From a bacterium (GTDB taxonomy: Bacteria > UBP15 > UBA6099 > JAJRTR01), in NCBI GenBank assembly GCA_024278215.1, contig JAJRTR010000002.1, forward strand, positions 1 to 14,685: a stretch of DNA of 14,685 bases, written 5' to 3'. Under the pieces are notes generated by a model. The model did not search any database. It worked only from the letters and a program-made list of their open reading frames with translations, and was not told where the DNA came from. Both the position numbers and the translations under genes were made by a program. The stretch's first letter is position 1, and each line of letters opens with the position of its first letter. Shown one piece after another: positions 1 through 13,354 of the stretch.

Positions 1-960
1 GATCTCGACGCGCGCGTATTTTATGAGCAGCGGGTTGTCGGGATTCTGCATGTCGGTGAGGACGCGGATGTTTGTGCTTGTGGCGACGGCGAGCAGTGTG
101 CCGCACACAACGCCGTGCGGTATGTCGAAAAAGCCGCCGATGGGGCCTGCGAGGCCGTGGACGATGCCGAGTCCGGCGTTCGCGAGCGTGATGCCCGACA
201 GCATAGCGGCGTAGGCCATGTCGGCGCGGGCGTCGAGGTTGTCGCCGTAGTTGCACGACTCCATCAGGCTGCGGCTCAGGCGCTCGAGGCCGCTGTAGGC
301 GAGTGCGTCGGTCATTGGCGACGATTCGGTCGAGGTGTACGATTCGAGAAGTTGCGTGAAAGCATCGAGCCCGCACGCCGCAGTGACCGCGGGCGGGCAG
401 GAGAGAGCGAGCTCGGGGTCGATCATTGCGATGTCCGGGACAAAGTTGTCGTGCCGTAGCGATTTTTTGAAGCCGTCGACACCTATCTTGCTGAGCACCG
501 CGTTTTTGGTCGTTTCGCTCCCTGTGCCGGATGTCGTGGGCAGTGCGATGAACGGGACTTTGCTGCCGGGATGCTCTTTTCCCGTGCCGACGCCTTCGAG
601 ATAATCGAAGACGGATTCGTTGAGATGCAGCATTGCGGATACGGCTTTGCCCGCGTCGATGACGCTGCCGCCGCCGATGGAAATTACGACATTTATGTCC
701 GAGCCGCTGTACTCGAAAACGGTTGCGTCGACAAAATCAGGCGATGGTTCACCGCTGATTGTCGTATGGTGCATTTCTACGGAATTTTTTTTAAGTTCAT
801 CTGAAAACTGCGTCCAGGCCCGACATCTGCCCGGGAAGCCGGGACTTGTGATAACGAGCGCGTTGTTGCAATGGCCGCTGATGATACCAGCGAGCCGGGC
901 GAACTTGCCGGTGCCGAAAATGATCCTCGGTATTCTTGCGAAAGCGAATGGGCTTATCAT
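1..960 (-). CDS. Iron-containing (group III) alcohol dehydrogenase, C-terminus cut by window edge
   Basis: Reads from ATG at 960 through 320 codons to the window edge with no stop, so the C-terminal part (families run about 380-400 residues) is missing. It should be a cytoplasmic NAD(P)-dependent oxidoreductase interconverting an alcohol and an aldehyde or ketone; the substrate cannot be told. Visible motifs in order are the nucleotide-binding GGGSVIDAGKA, then PTTSGTGSE, a metal-site segment GLDAFTQLLESY, then GIVHGLAGP and DIPHGVVCG. Two metal-ligand histidines (in IVHGL and IPHGV) and the ligand aspartate (GLDAF) are present. The position that is histidine in FucO-type enzymes (DAxTH) is glutamine here (DAFTQ), a variant I recall from some family members. 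GGAG lies about 6 nt before the ATG. The gene starts 17 nt after the stop of the Cys-repeat secreted protein, so the two are probably co-transcribed. Confidence 0.93.
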   Translation of the reverse strand, partial: MISPFAFARIPRIIFGTGKFARLAGIISGHCNNALVITSPGFPGRCRAWTQFSDELKKNSVEMHHTTISGEPSPDFVDATVFEYSGSDINVVISIGGGSVIDAGKAVSAMLHLNESVFDYLEGVGTGKEHPGSKVPFIALPTTSGTGSETTKNAVLSKIGVDGFKKSLRHDNFVPDIAMIDPELALSCPPAVTAACGLDAFTQLLESYTSTESSPMTDALAYSGLERLSRSLMESCNYGDNLDARADMAYAAMLSGITLANAGLGIVHGLAGPIGGFFDIPHGVVCGTLLAVATSTNIRVLTDMQNPDNPLLIKYARVEI

Positions 961-977
961 GTTTATCTCCGATGTTA

Positions 978-2177
978 CTATTGTTGAACTATTTCAGCCG
1001 TGCATTTCGTATGTTCCGGGTCGCGCGAGTATTCCTTGCAGTAGGGGTTGTTTGTGCTGAGGCAGCCACCGATGGTATCTTCTCTGGCCTCGTTCTCGGT
1101 GGCACCGGTGCCCTCGAAACCGTCGTTGCGCGCGCCGTCGTTTTTCCACAGGGTGCAGGTCCAGCGCACCTGCGGTGTCGAGTTTTGCGCGGAGGCATAA
1201 GCGACGCATTTTGTGTGTGCGTCGTCCACGGCATACTGCTCGCAGTATGGGTTGTTTGTCGAACGGCAGCCGCTGATGGTATCTTTTCGCGCTTTCTCCT
1301 CGGTGGTGCCTGTACCCTGGAAGCCGTCGTTGCGCGCGCCGTCGTTCTTGCGCAGCATACACTCCCATCTTTCGATATTTATGTCTTTCGGTATTTGATC
1401 GCGGTCGTAATCCACGAGTTTCACGTCGCCCGTGTCCTGGAACTCGACATTGCAGACAGTATGGTCGGGGTGCCGCGAATACGCCGTGCAATGCGGATTG
1501 TTCGTGCGGAAGCAGCCGGAGGCGGCATCGTTGCGCGCGTCTTCGAGTGTGCTGCCGTAGCCGTTGAAACCATCGTTGCGCGCGCCGTCGTTCTTCTGCA
1601 GGTAGCAGTGCCACCGAGTGCTGTATTGTTTCAGCGCCACCTTTACAGTTTTCGACTGAGCGGGTGTTTTCTTATCCGGCGTCTGGACGGTCTGCGGCGC
1701 GGATGGTGCGGGTTCGGCGGTGGTCGCGCCGGACGTGTCGGCAGCTTTGCCCATCGGAGACGTCCGCACCGCGGGCAGCCACAACACGTAATCAGGGTCG
1801 ATTACATAGCCTTTGTCGATCTGATTTTTGAGTTCACTCTTCAGCTTGTCGTAGAGATTGATCTTCGCAGAGACGACAATATCTTTTTCGGGTCTGTCGC
1901 AACTGTCGGCAGCGTCGAAAAGATCGACAGTGAACGACACCACTTTCTTTGTGCCCCTGTATGATTTGTATTCGGGCGAGAACCTGACAGATGCCCTGTG
2001 CTGCGAGGCCGGGCATCTGCTATATGTGAGGAACGAGTATTCGAGCGCAGCGCCGTCGAAGCTCATCGTGTCGAGTATGCCTACCTGTTTGATCTGTGCC
2101 GCACCGGCATCGAGGCATGTCAGAAATAATGCCGCCACCACTACAAAGATAATCGCACCTGCTTTTTTCATTTTCAT
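978..2177 (-). CDS. Secreted protein with three identical-spacing four-cysteine repeats (unknown function)
   Basis: 399 residues. I do not recognise the family. Residues 1-27 form a signal peptide (Lys start, hydrophobic core, AGA-AQ end), so export is likely; a Cys at 21 lies in a poor lipobox context. Residues 28-140 form a unique N-terminal domain with Cys55 and Cys93. A Thr/Ala/Pro-rich linker (about 145-176) follows. Then come three 54-residue modules at 189-242, 271-324 and 339-392. Each has W-x-C, KNDGARNDGF, a G-x-G-x-T segment, an acidic helix, GC, TNNPxC and a final C. Cysteine spacing is CX30CX7CX11C in all three with no insertions, suggesting two disulfides per module. The start at 2177 follows GGAG by about 9 nt; an in-frame ATG two codons later is possible. 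It lies 108 nt after mutS and 17 nt before the Fe-ADH gene. It could be an extracellular binding or adhesive protein; nothing catalytic is apparent. Confidence 0.85.
   Translation of the reverse strand: MKMKKAGAIIFVVVAALFLTCLDAGAAQIKQVGILDTMSFDGAALEYSFLTYSRCPASQHRASVRFSPEYKSYRGTKKVVSFTVDLFDAADSCDRPEKDIVVSAKINLYDKLKSELKNQIDKGYVIDPDYVLWLPAVRTSPMGKAADTSGATTAEPAPSAPQTVQTPDKKTPAQSKTVKVALKQYSTRWHCYLQKNDGARNDGFNGYGSTLEDARNDAASGCFRTNNPHCTAYSRHPDHTVCNVEFQDTGDVKLVDYDRDQIPKDINIERWECMLRKNDGARNDGFQGTGTTEEKARKDTISGCRSTNNPYCEQYAVDDAHTKCVAYASAQNSTPQVRWTCTLWKNDGARNDGFEGTGATENEAREDTIGGCLSTNNPYCKEYSRDPEHTKCTAEIVQQ
1123..1592 (-). repeat. Three exact 20-nt DNA repeats inside the Cys-repeat gene
   Basis: The 20-mer TCGTTGCGCGCGCCGTCGTT (plus-strand reading) occurs exactly at 1123-1142, 1327-1346 and 1573-1592, in the same frame each time, and encodes NDGARND. 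Spacing between copies is 204 and 246 nt, matching the protein module spacing of 68 and 82 residues. The flanking codons diverge more than this core. The modules therefore arose by internal duplication, and the core has either been strongly conserved or homogenised. Confidence 0.9.
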
Positions 2178-2285: not shown

Positions 2286-4874
2286 TCAATACGACTCATC
2301 GAGCATATCTTTCATTTTGAACAGCATGTCGAGCGCTTTCTTCGGAGTGAGTTCGTCCGGATCGATACTCCTGAGAATCTCTTCGATGCGGCTGGGCGGC
2401 AAGTCGTCGATAAGTGTAAGCTGCGAAATGGTTCTCTCGGGTACCGTCATGTTATCATCCCCGGCGCGGTCCGCCATTATCTCCGCCGCGCGCCGTATGA
2501 CCGAAGCCGGCACGCCCGCCATCTTCGCCACCTCGACGCCGAAACTACGGTCCGTGCTGCCGGGTATCACCTTGTGCGTAAAGACAATCTCCCTGCCCTT
2601 TTCAATGGCTGATACATGGTGATTTTTTATCCGTTCATATTTCTCTTCCATTTTTGTGAGTTCATTAAAATGCGTTGCAAACAGGGTTTTCGCGCCGATG
2701 CGTTCGTGAATATATTCCGTGGCGGCCCACGCGATGCCGACGCCGTCTGTTGTGCCCGTGCCGCGTCCGACCTCGTCCAGCAGTATCAGCGCACGCTTCG
2801 ACGCATTATTGAGAATCACCGATGTCTCGACCATTTCGACCATGAACGTGCTCAGCCCCAGCGCTATGTCGTCGACCGCGCCCACGCGTGTGAATATGCG
2901 GTCTACAACACCTATGTCCGCGCTCGCGCAGGGCACGAAGCCGCCTGTCTGCGCCATCAGCACTATCAGCGCCACCTGCCGCATGTAAGTCGATTTCCCG
3001 GACATGTTGGGGCCGGTGATTATATGTATCTGGCTCGACGAGCAGTTCAGAAACGTATCGTTGGGAATGAAAGAGTGGGCCGGCAGCGTGTGTTCGAGTA
3101 CCGGGTGGCGGCCTTCTTCGATCCTGATCGTTTCCGACCTGCTCACGTTGGGGCGGCAGTAGTTGTTGTCCGCCGCGACAGAAGCGAGCGACAGCAGAGT
3201 GTCCACCGCTGCCACAACCCGCGACGCCTTCAGCATCCTGGGTATCTCTTCGGCAACTCTGTCGCGCACCTCGCAGAATAGTTTATATTCCAGATCGTTC
3301 AGTCTGCCCTCGGCACCTAGTATCGCGAGTTCCTTTTCCTTTAGTTCTTCCGTGAAGTAGCGTTCACAGTTCGCCATCGTCTGTTTTCGGATGTAATGAT
3401 CCGGCACGAGATCGAGATTTGATTTTGTTACCTCGATAAAATAGCCGAACACCTTATTGTATTTGATTTTCAGCGATTTTATGCCGGTTTCGCTGCGCTC
3501 GTGTTCTTCGAGTTCGACGATCCAGGTGCGGCCGCCTTTTTTCGCTGCCCGCAGTTCGTCCACTTCCTCGTTGAAACCGTCATTGACGATGCCGCCCTCG
3601 CGCATGGTGCGGGGCGCGTCGTCGGAGATCGCGTTGCGGAGCAGGTCGGTTACATCTTCGAGCAGATCGAGGTCCGCCGCGAGCGTTTCGAACATGTTGC
3701 TTTTCAGCTCCGACAATTCTTTTTTCAACGGAGGCATGTAAGCGAGCGAATCGCGGATGGCGAGCAGTTCGCGCGGTGTGATAAGGCTTGTGGCCACGCG
3801 GCTAGAGAGGCGCTCGAGGTCCCGGATTTCCGACAGGTGCGCGGCGAGCGCTTCCCTGCGGACACGGTCTTCGACAAGTTCGGATACGGCATCAAGGCGG
3901 CGGTTGATCTCATCGGCGTCCAGCAGCGGCTGTTCGATCCAGCGCCGTATCATCCTTTTACCCATGGGCGTTTGCGTGCGGTCGACGACCCACAGCAGGC
4001 TGCCCTTGCGCGCCCCCTCGCGGATGGTTCCCGTCAGCTCGAGGTTCCGCTTCGTCGACGGGTCCATGTACATGTTTTCGTCGAGAACATAAAGGGAGAT
4101 GGACTGCACATGTTTCGGCGCGGCGCGCAGGTTGTCTGTCACGTAATCGAGCAACTGGCCCGCCGCCATTATCGCCAGCGGGTAGTCTTCGAGCCCGAAA
4201 CCTTTGAGTGATTTTGTGCCGAAATGCCCGCACAGCCTGTCCCGGTGATATGCGGGATCGAAAAGCGGATCGAACGGCGTAAGGCTAAGATCGGGGAACT
4301 CGCGACCTATGGATTCGGCGAGTTCGTCCTCGGCGGCACGCACGGCGACGAGGCACTCTCTGGGCGCGATGCGCTCTATTTCCCTGAGCAGCAGCCCCGG
4401 CCCGCCGCCCCTGGGTATCTCGCCCGCGCTGAACTCGCCCGTCGATATGTCGATGATGCTGATGCCGAATCTGTCGCGCGCCGCGACGATGGAAAGCACA
4501 TACTGATTGCGACCGGCGTCGAGCCGCTCGATGTCCATATCTGTTCCGGGTGTGATGATTCTGACAACTTCGCGATTGACGATCTTCTTGCCTTTCGTCG
4601 GCTGCTCGGTCTGTTCGACGATGGCGACTTTGTGGCCAAGTTCGAGCAGTTTAGCGATGTAGGAGTCCGCCGCATGATGCGGTACACCGCACATCGGCAG
4701 CTTGATGCCGCCGCCGAAGCTGCGCTCCGTCCTCACAATTTCGAGCGCCTTCGACGCGACGACGGCGTCTTCGCCGAACATTTCATAAAAATCGCCGAGG
4801 CGGTACATCAGTATCTCGTTTTTATGCTGGTCCTTTATGGAGCGGTACTGCTGGTACATGGGCGTCATACTCAA
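2286..4874 (-). CDS. mutS: DNA mismatch repair ATPase MutS
   Basis: 862 residues, normal bacterial MutS length (about 850-880). It binds base mismatches and small loops and uses ATP to license MutL. Seen in order: N-terminal mismatch-reading motif GDFYEMF (Phe29, Glu31), connector and core domains, clamp region (about 440-560), Walker A GPNMSGKST (621-629), the STFMVEM signature (665-671), Walker B LILLDE (696-701), the GRGTGTTDG loop (704-712, usually GRGTSTxDG), and ATHFNELT with His735. A helical C-terminal tail ends at 862. Start choice: TTG at 4874 lies 9 nt after GGAGGT and overlaps the miaB stop as TTGA. The alternative ATG at 4868 (MTPMYQQY) matches family N-termini equally well but sits 15 nt from that site. 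It is translationally coupled to miaB. No mutL follows in the window. Confidence 0.98.
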   Translation of the reverse strand: MSMTPMYQQYRSIKDQHKNEILMYRLGDFYEMFGEDAVVASKALEIVRTERSFGGGIKLPMCGVPHHAADSYIAKLLELGHKVAIVEQTEQPTKGKKIVNREVVRIITPGTDMDIERLDAGRNQYVLSIVAARDRFGISIIDISTGEFSAGEIPRGGGPGLLLREIERIAPRECLVAVRAAEDELAESIGREFPDLSLTPFDPLFDPAYHRDRLCGHFGTKSLKGFGLEDYPLAIMAAGQLLDYVTDNLRAAPKHVQSISLYVLDENMYMDPSTKRNLELTGTIREGARKGSLLWVVDRTQTPMGKRMIRRWIEQPLLDADEINRRLDAVSELVEDRVRREALAAHLSEIRDLERLSSRVATSLITPRELLAIRDSLAYMPPLKKELSELKSNMFETLAADLDLLEDVTDLLRNAISDDAPRTMREGGIVNDGFNEEVDELRAAKKGGRTWIVELEEHERSETGIKSLKIKYNKVFGYFIEVTKSNLDLVPDHYIRKQTMANCERYFTEELKEKELAILGAEGRLNDLEYKLFCEVRDRVAEEIPRMLKASRVVAAVDTLLSLASVAADNNYCRPNVSRSETIRIEEGRHPVLEHTLPAHSFIPNDTFLNCSSSQIHIITGPNMSGKSTYMRQVALIVLMAQTGGFVPCASADIGVVDRIFTRVGAVDDIALGLSTFMVEMVETSVILNNASKRALILLDEVGRGTGTTDGVGIAWAATEYIHERIGAKTLFATHFNELTKMEEKYERIKNHHVSAIEKGREIVFTHKVIPGSTDRSFGVEVAKMAGVPASVIRRAAEIMADRAGDDNMTVPERTISQLTLIDDLPPSRIEEILRSIDPDELTPKKALDMLFKMKDMLDESY

Positions 4875-11542: not shown

Positions 11543-11680
11543 TATAATACAGACGGAAAGGTTGTGATTAAGAATTTATACGCTTAACAGCGTTTAAATG
11601 ATCCCACTTATTCCTCAATTTCCCCTTAGTGTCTAATACGGCACTTTTGGTGGTTCCCTACAAGGAACCACCTTTTTTTT
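11543..11680 (+). ncRNA. Candidate small RNA, about 138 nt, with hairpin and intrinsic terminator
   Basis: A transcript from the promoter at 11508-11536 would start near 11543 and end in a strong terminator at 11680. In between, ATTTA-T-ACGCT (11574-11584), loop TAAC (11585-11588) and AGCGT-T-TAAAT (11589-11599) form an 11-position stem with one U-U mismatch. A C/U-rich unpaired stretch (about 11602-11633) follows, then the terminator stem. No open reading frame with a ribosome-binding site fits. The 3' end is antisense to the last codons of the glycosyltransferase gene. I do not recognise a known RNA family. The rest of the gene-free stretch 11278-11657 is AT-rich and otherwise holds only a hairpin repeat and a possible -10 box. 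A decayed mobile-element end is the main alternative. Confidence 0.35.
11649..11680 (+). terminator. Rho-independent terminator (plus-strand orientation)
   Basis: A perfect 9-bp stem, GGTGGTTCC (11649-11657) and GGAACCACC (11664-11672), with a 6-nt loop and eight Ts (11673-11680). The T-tract is only on the plus side, so it terminates plus-strand RNA. The glycosyltransferase stop codon (minus strand) lies in the loop and its final KKGGSL codons form the stem. For minus-strand RNA it would be a plain 3' hairpin. Confidence 0.85.
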
Positions 11681-12407
11681 GTGTATCTGCGTTTGTGGAA
11701 AATCTGTGCGTGATACGGTTGCAGGCCGTGACAAACGCGACTGCGGCGCAGGCGAGAAGAGCGCGAGCGACACCCACGCCCTGTCGCGCCCGGTGGGCGA
11801 AACCACGCACCGAACGCCCGGTGGGCCGGTGCGTCATCTCCACCGGAACTTCGACAACCCTGAAACCGCCGCGTGCCGCCTTAATCAACATATCTGTCTC
11901 GACACCGAAGTCGCGGCGCAACGGATATACAGCGTTCAGCACTTCACGCCGCATGGCGCGTTGCCCGGAAAGCGGGGCCGTCACTGTGATGCCGCCCAGT
12001 TTTCGCACCCCGAACCGCGCAAGACGCAACACGAGTCCGAACCCGCCGCCGGGCGCTGAAAACGCACCCACTGCGAGGTCGGCTTCGTCGTCGCGTACAA
12101 TATCGAGTATCGGTTGCGCCGCCGCCGCCGAGCCGCCAAGATCGGCATCCAGAAACATGATGTACCGGCCCCGCGCCGCCGCCAGCCCGGCATTCATCGC
12201 GGCACCCTTGCCACGGTTTTTCATTTTACGCACTACCATCGCACCGTGCTCGAGCGCGATAGACGCAGTTTCGTCCTTCGAGCCGTCGTCTACAACAATT
12301 ACTTCGTCGCCGAGTTTCAACCGGAACAGCGCGTCGACAGTCGCTCCGATCCGCTCAGCCTCGTTGTAGGCCGGTATGATAATAGAAACCGTTCCGGGGT
12401 TTATCAC
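11658..12407 (-). CDS. Family 2 glycosyltransferase (DPM1/WcaA-like)
   Basis: 249 residues from GTG at 12407, which overlaps the upstream gene's stop as GTGA. It transfers a sugar from a nucleotide-activated donor to an unknown, probably lipid or envelope, acceptor. The GT-A fold is seen in VSIIIPAYNEAERI (7-20), VVDDGS (38-43) and the metal-binding LDADLGG (86-92). Then come LSGQRAMRREVL, like the SGFRAFRR of dolichyl-phosphate-mannose synthases, and GVETDMLIKAARGGFRVVEVPV. Near the C-terminus the RGFAHRARQG segment and a hydrophobic stretch (about 221-238) suggest membrane association. Translation is coupled to the MctB/SteB-like gene. The C-terminal KKGGSL lies in the hairpin described at 11649-11680. 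The acceptor cannot be predicted. Confidence 0.92.
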   Translation of the reverse strand: MINPGTVSIIIPAYNEAERIGATVDALFRLKLGDEVIVVDDGSKDETASIALEHGAMVVRKMKNRGKGAAMNAGLAAARGRYIMFLDADLGGSAAAAQPILDIVRDDEADLAVGAFSAPGGGFGLVLRLARFGVRKLGGITVTAPLSGQRAMRREVLNAVYPLRRDFGVETDMLIKAARGGFRVVEVPVEMTHRPTGRSVRGFAHRARQGVGVARALLACAAVAFVTACNRITHRFSTNADTQKKGGSL

Positions 12408-13213
12408 TTCAGGGTGTCGCTCCTTCTCTGGAGATACAATTCACTGAGTTGCGACACGGCGTCTACCTGCCCGTTAAGTTTTTCAATATTCTGGAAATAA
12501 GGCAACCTGCCCGCCTTGAATATGTTCATATAGGCGCTCTTGCGCCCGTATGCCGCATTCAGGACAAGCCCCTCGTTGTTCTCGATAACATTTTCTATCG
12601 GCAACACTATCCGCCTCACATCATAGAGGTCGAGATTGCTTCCAAGAATGAAGACAATGCCGCCGACAGGTTTTTCGAAGCTGCCGGAAACAAGCGCACC
12701 TTCGCTGACGAGATTGTCGGTGAAAGATGTGCCGAAATCCGCGCCGTTAAGCATTTCCTTTGCAAGGAGCGGCACCGTCAGCCCCGGGTCTTTCCCGAGC
12801 AGTTCCTTAAGAACGGCGAGCGATGTATGCACTTTGAAAGATATACGCCCGCCGGAGGTCTTGAGCCGTCCCAGAAAAGCATCCTCATTCATTGTATCGT
12901 CTTTGGGTTCGCCAAGGACAACCACGCCCAGGTCCAGGCCGTCGAGCTTTCCACTGAGCAGCTTGGGCAACACACTGTCTTCGAGCAACTTCTTATATTT
13001 TTCCGTTTCATTAAGTTCGGCTTTGGTTTCCTTCACCTCTTTTCGAATTTCCTTGTAGTTTTCTTCCAGTTTTTCTATGATCGAATTCTGGCTCTTGATT
13101 ATGGAACTGATGCCGAAAAAGTTCGTGTTGCTTCCCACAAGGATTCCCACACCCAGCGCGAGGAATACCGCCGCGAGAGAAACCACATGGTATCTTATAT
13201 TTATCGGGCCCAA
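12404..13213 (-). CDS. MctB/SteB-like membrane-anchored coiled-coil protein (copper transporter family, DUF3186)
   Basis: 269 residues. The N-terminal INIRYHVVSLAAVFLALG followed by VGILVGS is characteristic of the family that includes mycobacterial MctB (annotated as a copper transporter) and corynebacterial SteB (envelope-related partner of SteA). One transmembrane helix lies at about 8-28, a Lys/Glu-rich coiled coil at about 38-79, and a mixed alpha/beta domain follows (LGVVVLGEPKDD, GGIVFILGSNLD). No clustered Cys/His/Met copper site is apparent, so a copper role is doubtful. Start choice: TTG at 13213 is 7 nt after GGAGGT and gives the usual family N-terminus; GTG at 13219 is only 1 nt from that site. 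The stop overlaps the GT2 start (GTGA). I recall this pairing with a GT2 from Gram-positive genomes. No steA is seen here. Confidence 0.82.
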   Translation of the reverse strand: MGPINIRYHVVSLAAVFLALGVGILVGSNTNFFGISSIIKSQNSIIEKLEENYKEIRKEVKETKAELNETEKYKKLLEDSVLPKLLSGKLDGLDLGVVVLGEPKDDTMNEDAFLGRLKTSGGRISFKVHTSLAVLKELLGKDPGLTVPLLAKEMLNGADFGTSFTDNLVSEGALVSGSFEKPVGGIVFILGSNLDLYDVRRIVLPIENVIENNEGLVLNAAYGRKSAYMNIFKAGRLPYFQNIEKLNGQVDAVSQLSELYLQRRSDTLK

Positions 13214-13354
13214 TTTCACGACCTCCAGTTGTTACTTGATTTTATTCACTCTGTGCACCATCAACAAGCTGTGCGCGATCATATCAACAGGTTTCGAGCA
13301 GTAAACAGGCGATTTTTCGGTACAGTTTTATTTCCATGTTTATTCCATGCCGGG

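Follow-up and report, generated by a model that had tools for sequence, protein, structure and literature searches.

Gene organization and protein architecture

The window, i.e. the whole stretch of 14,685 nucleotides that was analysed, comes from a member of a small uncultured bacterial phylum and carries on its minus strand a gene coding for a predicted exported protein with three tandem modules. The features of this gene are the following (window coordinates):

978..2177, minus strand: whole coding sequence of the exported three-module protein, 399 amino acids and a stop codon
2097..2177, minus strand: predicted signal peptide, residues 1-27 (MKMKK, hydrophobic stretch, DAGAA), from hydropathy
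1761..2096, minus strand: N-terminal domain, residues 28-139, about 110 residues, two cysteines (55, 93)
1626..1760, minus strand: low-complexity linker (Pro/Ala/Ser/Thr), mostly disordered in the model
1437..1616, minus strand: module 1, residues 188-247, cysteines 191/222/230/242, from repeat comparison
1191..1370, minus strand: module 2, residues 270-329, cysteines 273/304/312/324, from repeat comparison
987..1166, minus strand: module 3, residues 338-397, cysteines 341/372/380/392, from repeat comparison
1573..1592, minus strand: 20-nt identical run, module 1 copy, encoding part of the KNDGARND loop
1327..1346, minus strand: 20-nt identical run, module 2 copy
1123..1142, minus strand: 20-nt identical run, module 3 copy

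The signal peptide proposed by the first-pass annotation agrees with a hydropathy peak of 3.1 over 13 residues, also present in the orthologs, and with an AxA-type site; the call was made from these two features only, and the cleavage site is accordingly putative. The protein would be exported by the Sec route. The N-terminal domain had been called novel, and it indeed gave no Pfam match and was recovered in orthologs only: it was not found beyond the three of them among 376 genomes sampled across the taxonomic domain. Both of its cysteines (55 and 93) are kept in all three orthologs. Antisense to the three-module gene lies an open frame of 342 residues (window 936-1964, plus strand); nothing independent supports it, and it is probably a side effect of the codon usage of the opposite strand.

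The gene is flanked by mutS (2286-4874) and by the gene of an Fe-containing alcohol dehydrogenase (1-960). All three are on the minus strand and belong to a run that includes matches to miaB, hisI, hisF, hisA, hisH and mnmA (names inferred from Pfam). Since the dehydrogenase gene starts 17 nt downstream of the three-module gene, co-transcription of the two is allowed. No promoter-like site was found by the gene, and terminator-like sites were at chance level. The first-pass annotation had asked whether homologues recur beside Fe-alcohol dehydrogenase genes, which is not the case: the ortholog at L005 neighbours a FAD-dependent oxidoreductase and a MotB/OmpA protein, that at L006 a radical SAM protein and an RND pump, and the more distant relative at L009 a metallophosphatase and a scramblase-like protein. 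Because neighbours differ in every relative, a functional link to the dehydrogenase was rejected and the context is uninformative on function. Elsewhere in the window, a gene matching MctB, a copper transport outer membrane protein (12404-13219, minus strand; E 2.4e-19), adjoins a family 2 glycosyltransferase gene (11658-12407).

Relatives and distribution

Full-length orthologs were found in genomes G005 (L007, contig JAKQPS010000019.1; 46% identity, E 9e-98) and G001 (L008, JAGUYV010000371.1; 39% identity, E 1.6e-66), with the same N-terminal domain, linker and three-module layout. Counting the window's own genome, three of the seven genomes of the phylum carry the gene; in the remaining four, including one of 92% completeness, it was not found.

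A scan of a genome collection revealed one more module, carried by a protein of different architecture in Elusimicrobia bacterium RIFOXYA12_FULL_51_18 (L009:5800-7563). Like the window protein, this protein has a clear module behind a predicted export signal; unlike it, it lacks the shared N-terminal domain, and its single module precedes a long series of YDxxG-type pentapeptide repeats and another C-terminal region. The expectation that relatives would differ in module number was therefore borne out, with one module in L009 and three in the orthologs. The L009 module is 50-68% identical to those ortholog modules that have full length, the highest value being to module 3 of L008. Since a credible match was obtained in only one of 340 Elusimicrobia genomes, and given this 68% identity, acquisition of the L009 module by horizontal transfer would fit the sequence data, which do not prove it.

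Plasmids, phages and viral contigs yielded no relatives, and a scan of 386 genomes returned extra matches at chance level only. Weak matches in G215, G083 and G435 were discarded as chance, as they fell in unsupported frames (beside a real frame, in a pilin, or antisense).

Cysteine register and conservation of the modules

The three modules, of about 58 residues each, have cysteines at identical offsets (3, 34, 42 and 54), giving the spacing C-x30-C-x7-C-x11-C that had been read from the sequence at first sight. The repeat was also recovered by independent repeat detection, with about 22 residues between modules 1 and 2 and about 8 between modules 2 and 3. Among 20,000 shuffled versions of the C-terminal part, 23 had a single copy of the cysteine pattern and none had two or more. 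Any two modules share 55-67% of their residues and 59-68% of their nucleotides, and the reported exact 20-nt DNA match is present in all three. Each pair of modules differs synonymously at 14-15 codons of identical residues, which shows an old duplication in which shared residues were kept by selection on the protein. In the module tree, window modules 2 and 3 group together (88/86) and the rest is without resolution.

Ten modules were aligned, namely three from each of the three orthologs and one from L009. Eight columns are invariant: the four cysteines, both glycines of a GxG motif, one helix alanine and one asparagine. Two statements of the first-pass annotation had to be narrowed at this point. 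The KNDGARNDGF core is invariant inside the window protein, but relatives carry KRDGARKDGF, KNDGSSRDGF or no loop; conservation without indels is not general either, one ortholog module being 9 residues shorter. In module 2 of L008 the KNDGARND stretch is missing from the first hairpin, and all eight invariant columns are kept. Because this module retains them, the loop is dispensable for the scaffold; in the other nine modules it is among the most constant parts.

Predicted structure

Module 3, modelled with AlphaFold2 from the ten-row alignment, gave a pLDDT of 90.4, a confident prediction in line with the compact fold proposed earlier. The order of elements in the model is strand-strand-helix-short helix-strand (E4-11, E22-26, H29-41, H48-53, E58-65). 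The four cysteines fall, in turn, in the first strand, where the helix ends, where the short helix begins and in the last strand. Confidence is lower for the full-length model (pLDDT 70): its N-terminal domain is mostly beta (pLDDT about 75-85) and linker residues 139-174 fall under 50.

Foldseek searches of the PDB and of viral models with the module and full-length models returned nothing significant (best module E 0.15). With VIA-align, the first of 994 chains for the full-length model was 7nhz, aligned over module 1 (Z 5.1, rmsd 2.0, 50 residues); unrelated rows scored 5.0 and 4.6, the former, next in rank, over a different part of the protein, and 7nhz was absent from the matches listed for the single-module model. 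Taken by itself, a Z of 5.1 does not convince. The N-terminal domain matched NigD-like proteins and 5bmt (Z 4.6-5.0), a likeness of the model that is suggestive only.

Probable relationship to DUF4189

Chain 7nhz is Rv1813c of Mycobacterium tuberculosis, a solved DUF4189 protein, its identity having been checked by sequence match. Rv1813c consists of two facing lobes, each beta/beta/alpha/beta, and has two disulfides, one of which joins strands 4 and 6 (PMC10269737). The link to this family had arisen from a Pfam match before the structural result was obtained: DUF4189 (PF13827) aligned to residues 291-382 of the whole protein with 15.6 bits (E 0.025), under the cut-off of 25 bits, over a stretch that runs from one module into the next, as expected of a pair of lobes. 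Searched singly, the ten modules gave zero matches to Pfam DUF4189.

A profile-profile comparison of the modules with DUF4189 lobes scored 21.7 (P 3.7e-4, hhalign probability 36%), a score reached by none of 200 column-shuffled controls (mean 8.8, sd 2.0, maximum 14.5), although column shuffles are an easy null and the lobe profile was built from seven hand-picked lobes. P0002, a protein of a cyanobacterial plasmid, and genomes G622 and G718 supplied these lobes, which are true or likely DUF4189. P0002 is a true DUF4189 protein (Pfam E 1.5e-26); a self-made generic DUF4189-like query was used solely for reaching it. Its second lobe reads C-x29-C-x7-C-x6-C against C-x30-C-x7-C-x11-C in the modules, so that all four module cysteines have counterparts.

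Several features are common to the modules and DUF4189: predicted export, a strand-strand-helix-strand unit to which the modules add one extra short helix, a GxG ahead of the helix, helix alanines, a C-x7-C after the helix and the four-cysteine counterparts. The differences are also clear. In DUF4189 two lobes face each other within a single domain of about 97 positions, whereas here there are three modules separated by linkers, and a single one in L009. In the modules the first hairpin is longer and bears the K[NR]DGAR[NK]DGF loop, the Cys3-Cys4 stretch is longer too, both presumed disulfides would lie within one lobe, and the score is under the family cut-off. Judged by the Pfam cut-off, the protein does not belong to DUF4189. 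Searches for PF13827 in the window's phylum and in 334 Elusimicrobia found none, a weak negative as control genomes gave none either.

The mycobacterial relative L031 has four cysteines; if the last of them pairs with the strand-4 cysteine, as in Rv1813c (PMC10269737), the other two are left together, and by this analogy module cysteines would pair 1-4 and 2-3.

The sub-threshold Pfam match, the profile score and the structural match are each weak, and because they agree we think that the modules are rather likely akin to DUF4189 lobes. The module had first been described as unrecognised; this stands insofar as no Pfam family exceeded its cut-off with it, but probably not as regards kinship, with Rv1813c as best structural match and a weak agreement in sequence. 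The main competing explanation is that the module represents a separate small disulfide fold, whose GxG, T-xx-EA at the helix start and C-x7-C would have converged with DUF4189 on a common hairpin-helix element. It would account for the lack of any significant sequence match anywhere, for the Foldseek E of 0.15 and for a Z of 5.1 that is inside the range of common arrangements; a GxG-T-xx-EA-like element also occurs in double-stranded-RNA-binding domains. We nevertheless regard convergence as rather unlikely, as the placement of the cysteines, the order of elements and the first-ranked structural match all indicate DUF4189. A host-cell role has been reported for Rv1813c, but similarity to its fold is no evidence of a host-directed role here.

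The resemblance to the double-stranded-RNA-binding domain lies in a hairpin followed by a helix starting GxGxT-xx-EA-xxx-A, and the Pfam family dsrm (PF00035) reached 13.2 bits against a cut-off of 23 (E 0.14) in one ortholog only. That domain is intracellular and has an extra N-terminal helix, unlike the modules, and to our knowledge it has no conserved cysteines. Glyco_hydro_129 (PF11308; 18.4 bits against 25.6, best stretch 37 of 324 positions) was rejected, as were IgA0_D2, PHD, T9SS_sortase_N and phrog_15313, with matches that were weak, short or under cut-off.

Putative role of the modules

The best explanation overall, to which we give an even chance, is that the gene encodes an exported multivalent binding protein derived from a reworked DUF4189-type lobe. 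The protein would be Sec-exported and either envelope/periplasmic or secreted, with an orphan beta-rich N-terminal domain and a flexible linker preceding three tandem disulfide-rich modules. Each module would be a derived, free-standing DUF4189-type lobe with the conserved K[NR]DGAR[NK]DGF loop in its first hairpin; by analogy with Rv1813c, a Cys 1-4 bond would hold the first and last strands together, and a Cys 2-3 bond would close the turn after the helix. The hairpin loop is a putative contact site, and three copies in a row may allow multivalent binding of an envelope or extracellular ligand. A contact site is more likely than a structural need because the loop is best conserved, yet dispensed with in a sister module and in DUF4189 lobes. 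No conserved neighbours support a binding role. Computation establishes the gene, its modules, its relatives and a confident module model; the kinship with DUF4189, the pairing of the cysteines, the route of export and the role in binding are inferred.

Two other functions were considered for the loop. The modules could act in tandem to inhibit an enzyme outside the cell, for instance a protease, comparable to multi-headed disulfide-rich inhibitors, with the loop as inhibitory element. Tandem disulfide-rich domains with a conserved and probably exposed loop would suit this function, and ecotin turns up, at a Z of about 2.5, in the very weak matches to the N-terminal domain. Inhibitory loops, however, usually vary between repeats, whereas this loop is the most constant part of the module; no inhibitor family was matched in Pfam, the ecotin matches are at noise level, and the proposal seems improbable. 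It is just as hard to credit that the DGxxxDG loop, with two Asp-Gly pairs in nine of the ten modules, binds calcium or another cation in a stabilising or buffering envelope protein, as no calcium-binding family was matched in Pfam, the loop also has conserved basic residues and one module is without it.

Taken as a multivalent binding protein of DUF4189 descent, the window protein may represent, more tentatively, a new family of tandem single-lobe, doubly disulfide-bonded DUF4189 relatives, forming a multivalent array with a recognition loop, in an uncultured phylum and occasionally in Elusimicrobia. If the link to DUF4189 is true, a two-lobed fold that was without structural relative according to its discoverers gains single-lobe, repeatable relatives in environmental bacteria, which would provide an evolutionary context for DUF4189 and a small, tractable module for binding studies; if it is false, this is one more lineage-specific exported repeat protein. 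Genome G622 harbours several proteins made of DUF4189-like lobes (L037, L040 and L042), exceeding the Pfam cut-off in five places, and these are a possible source of intermediates between lobe and module.
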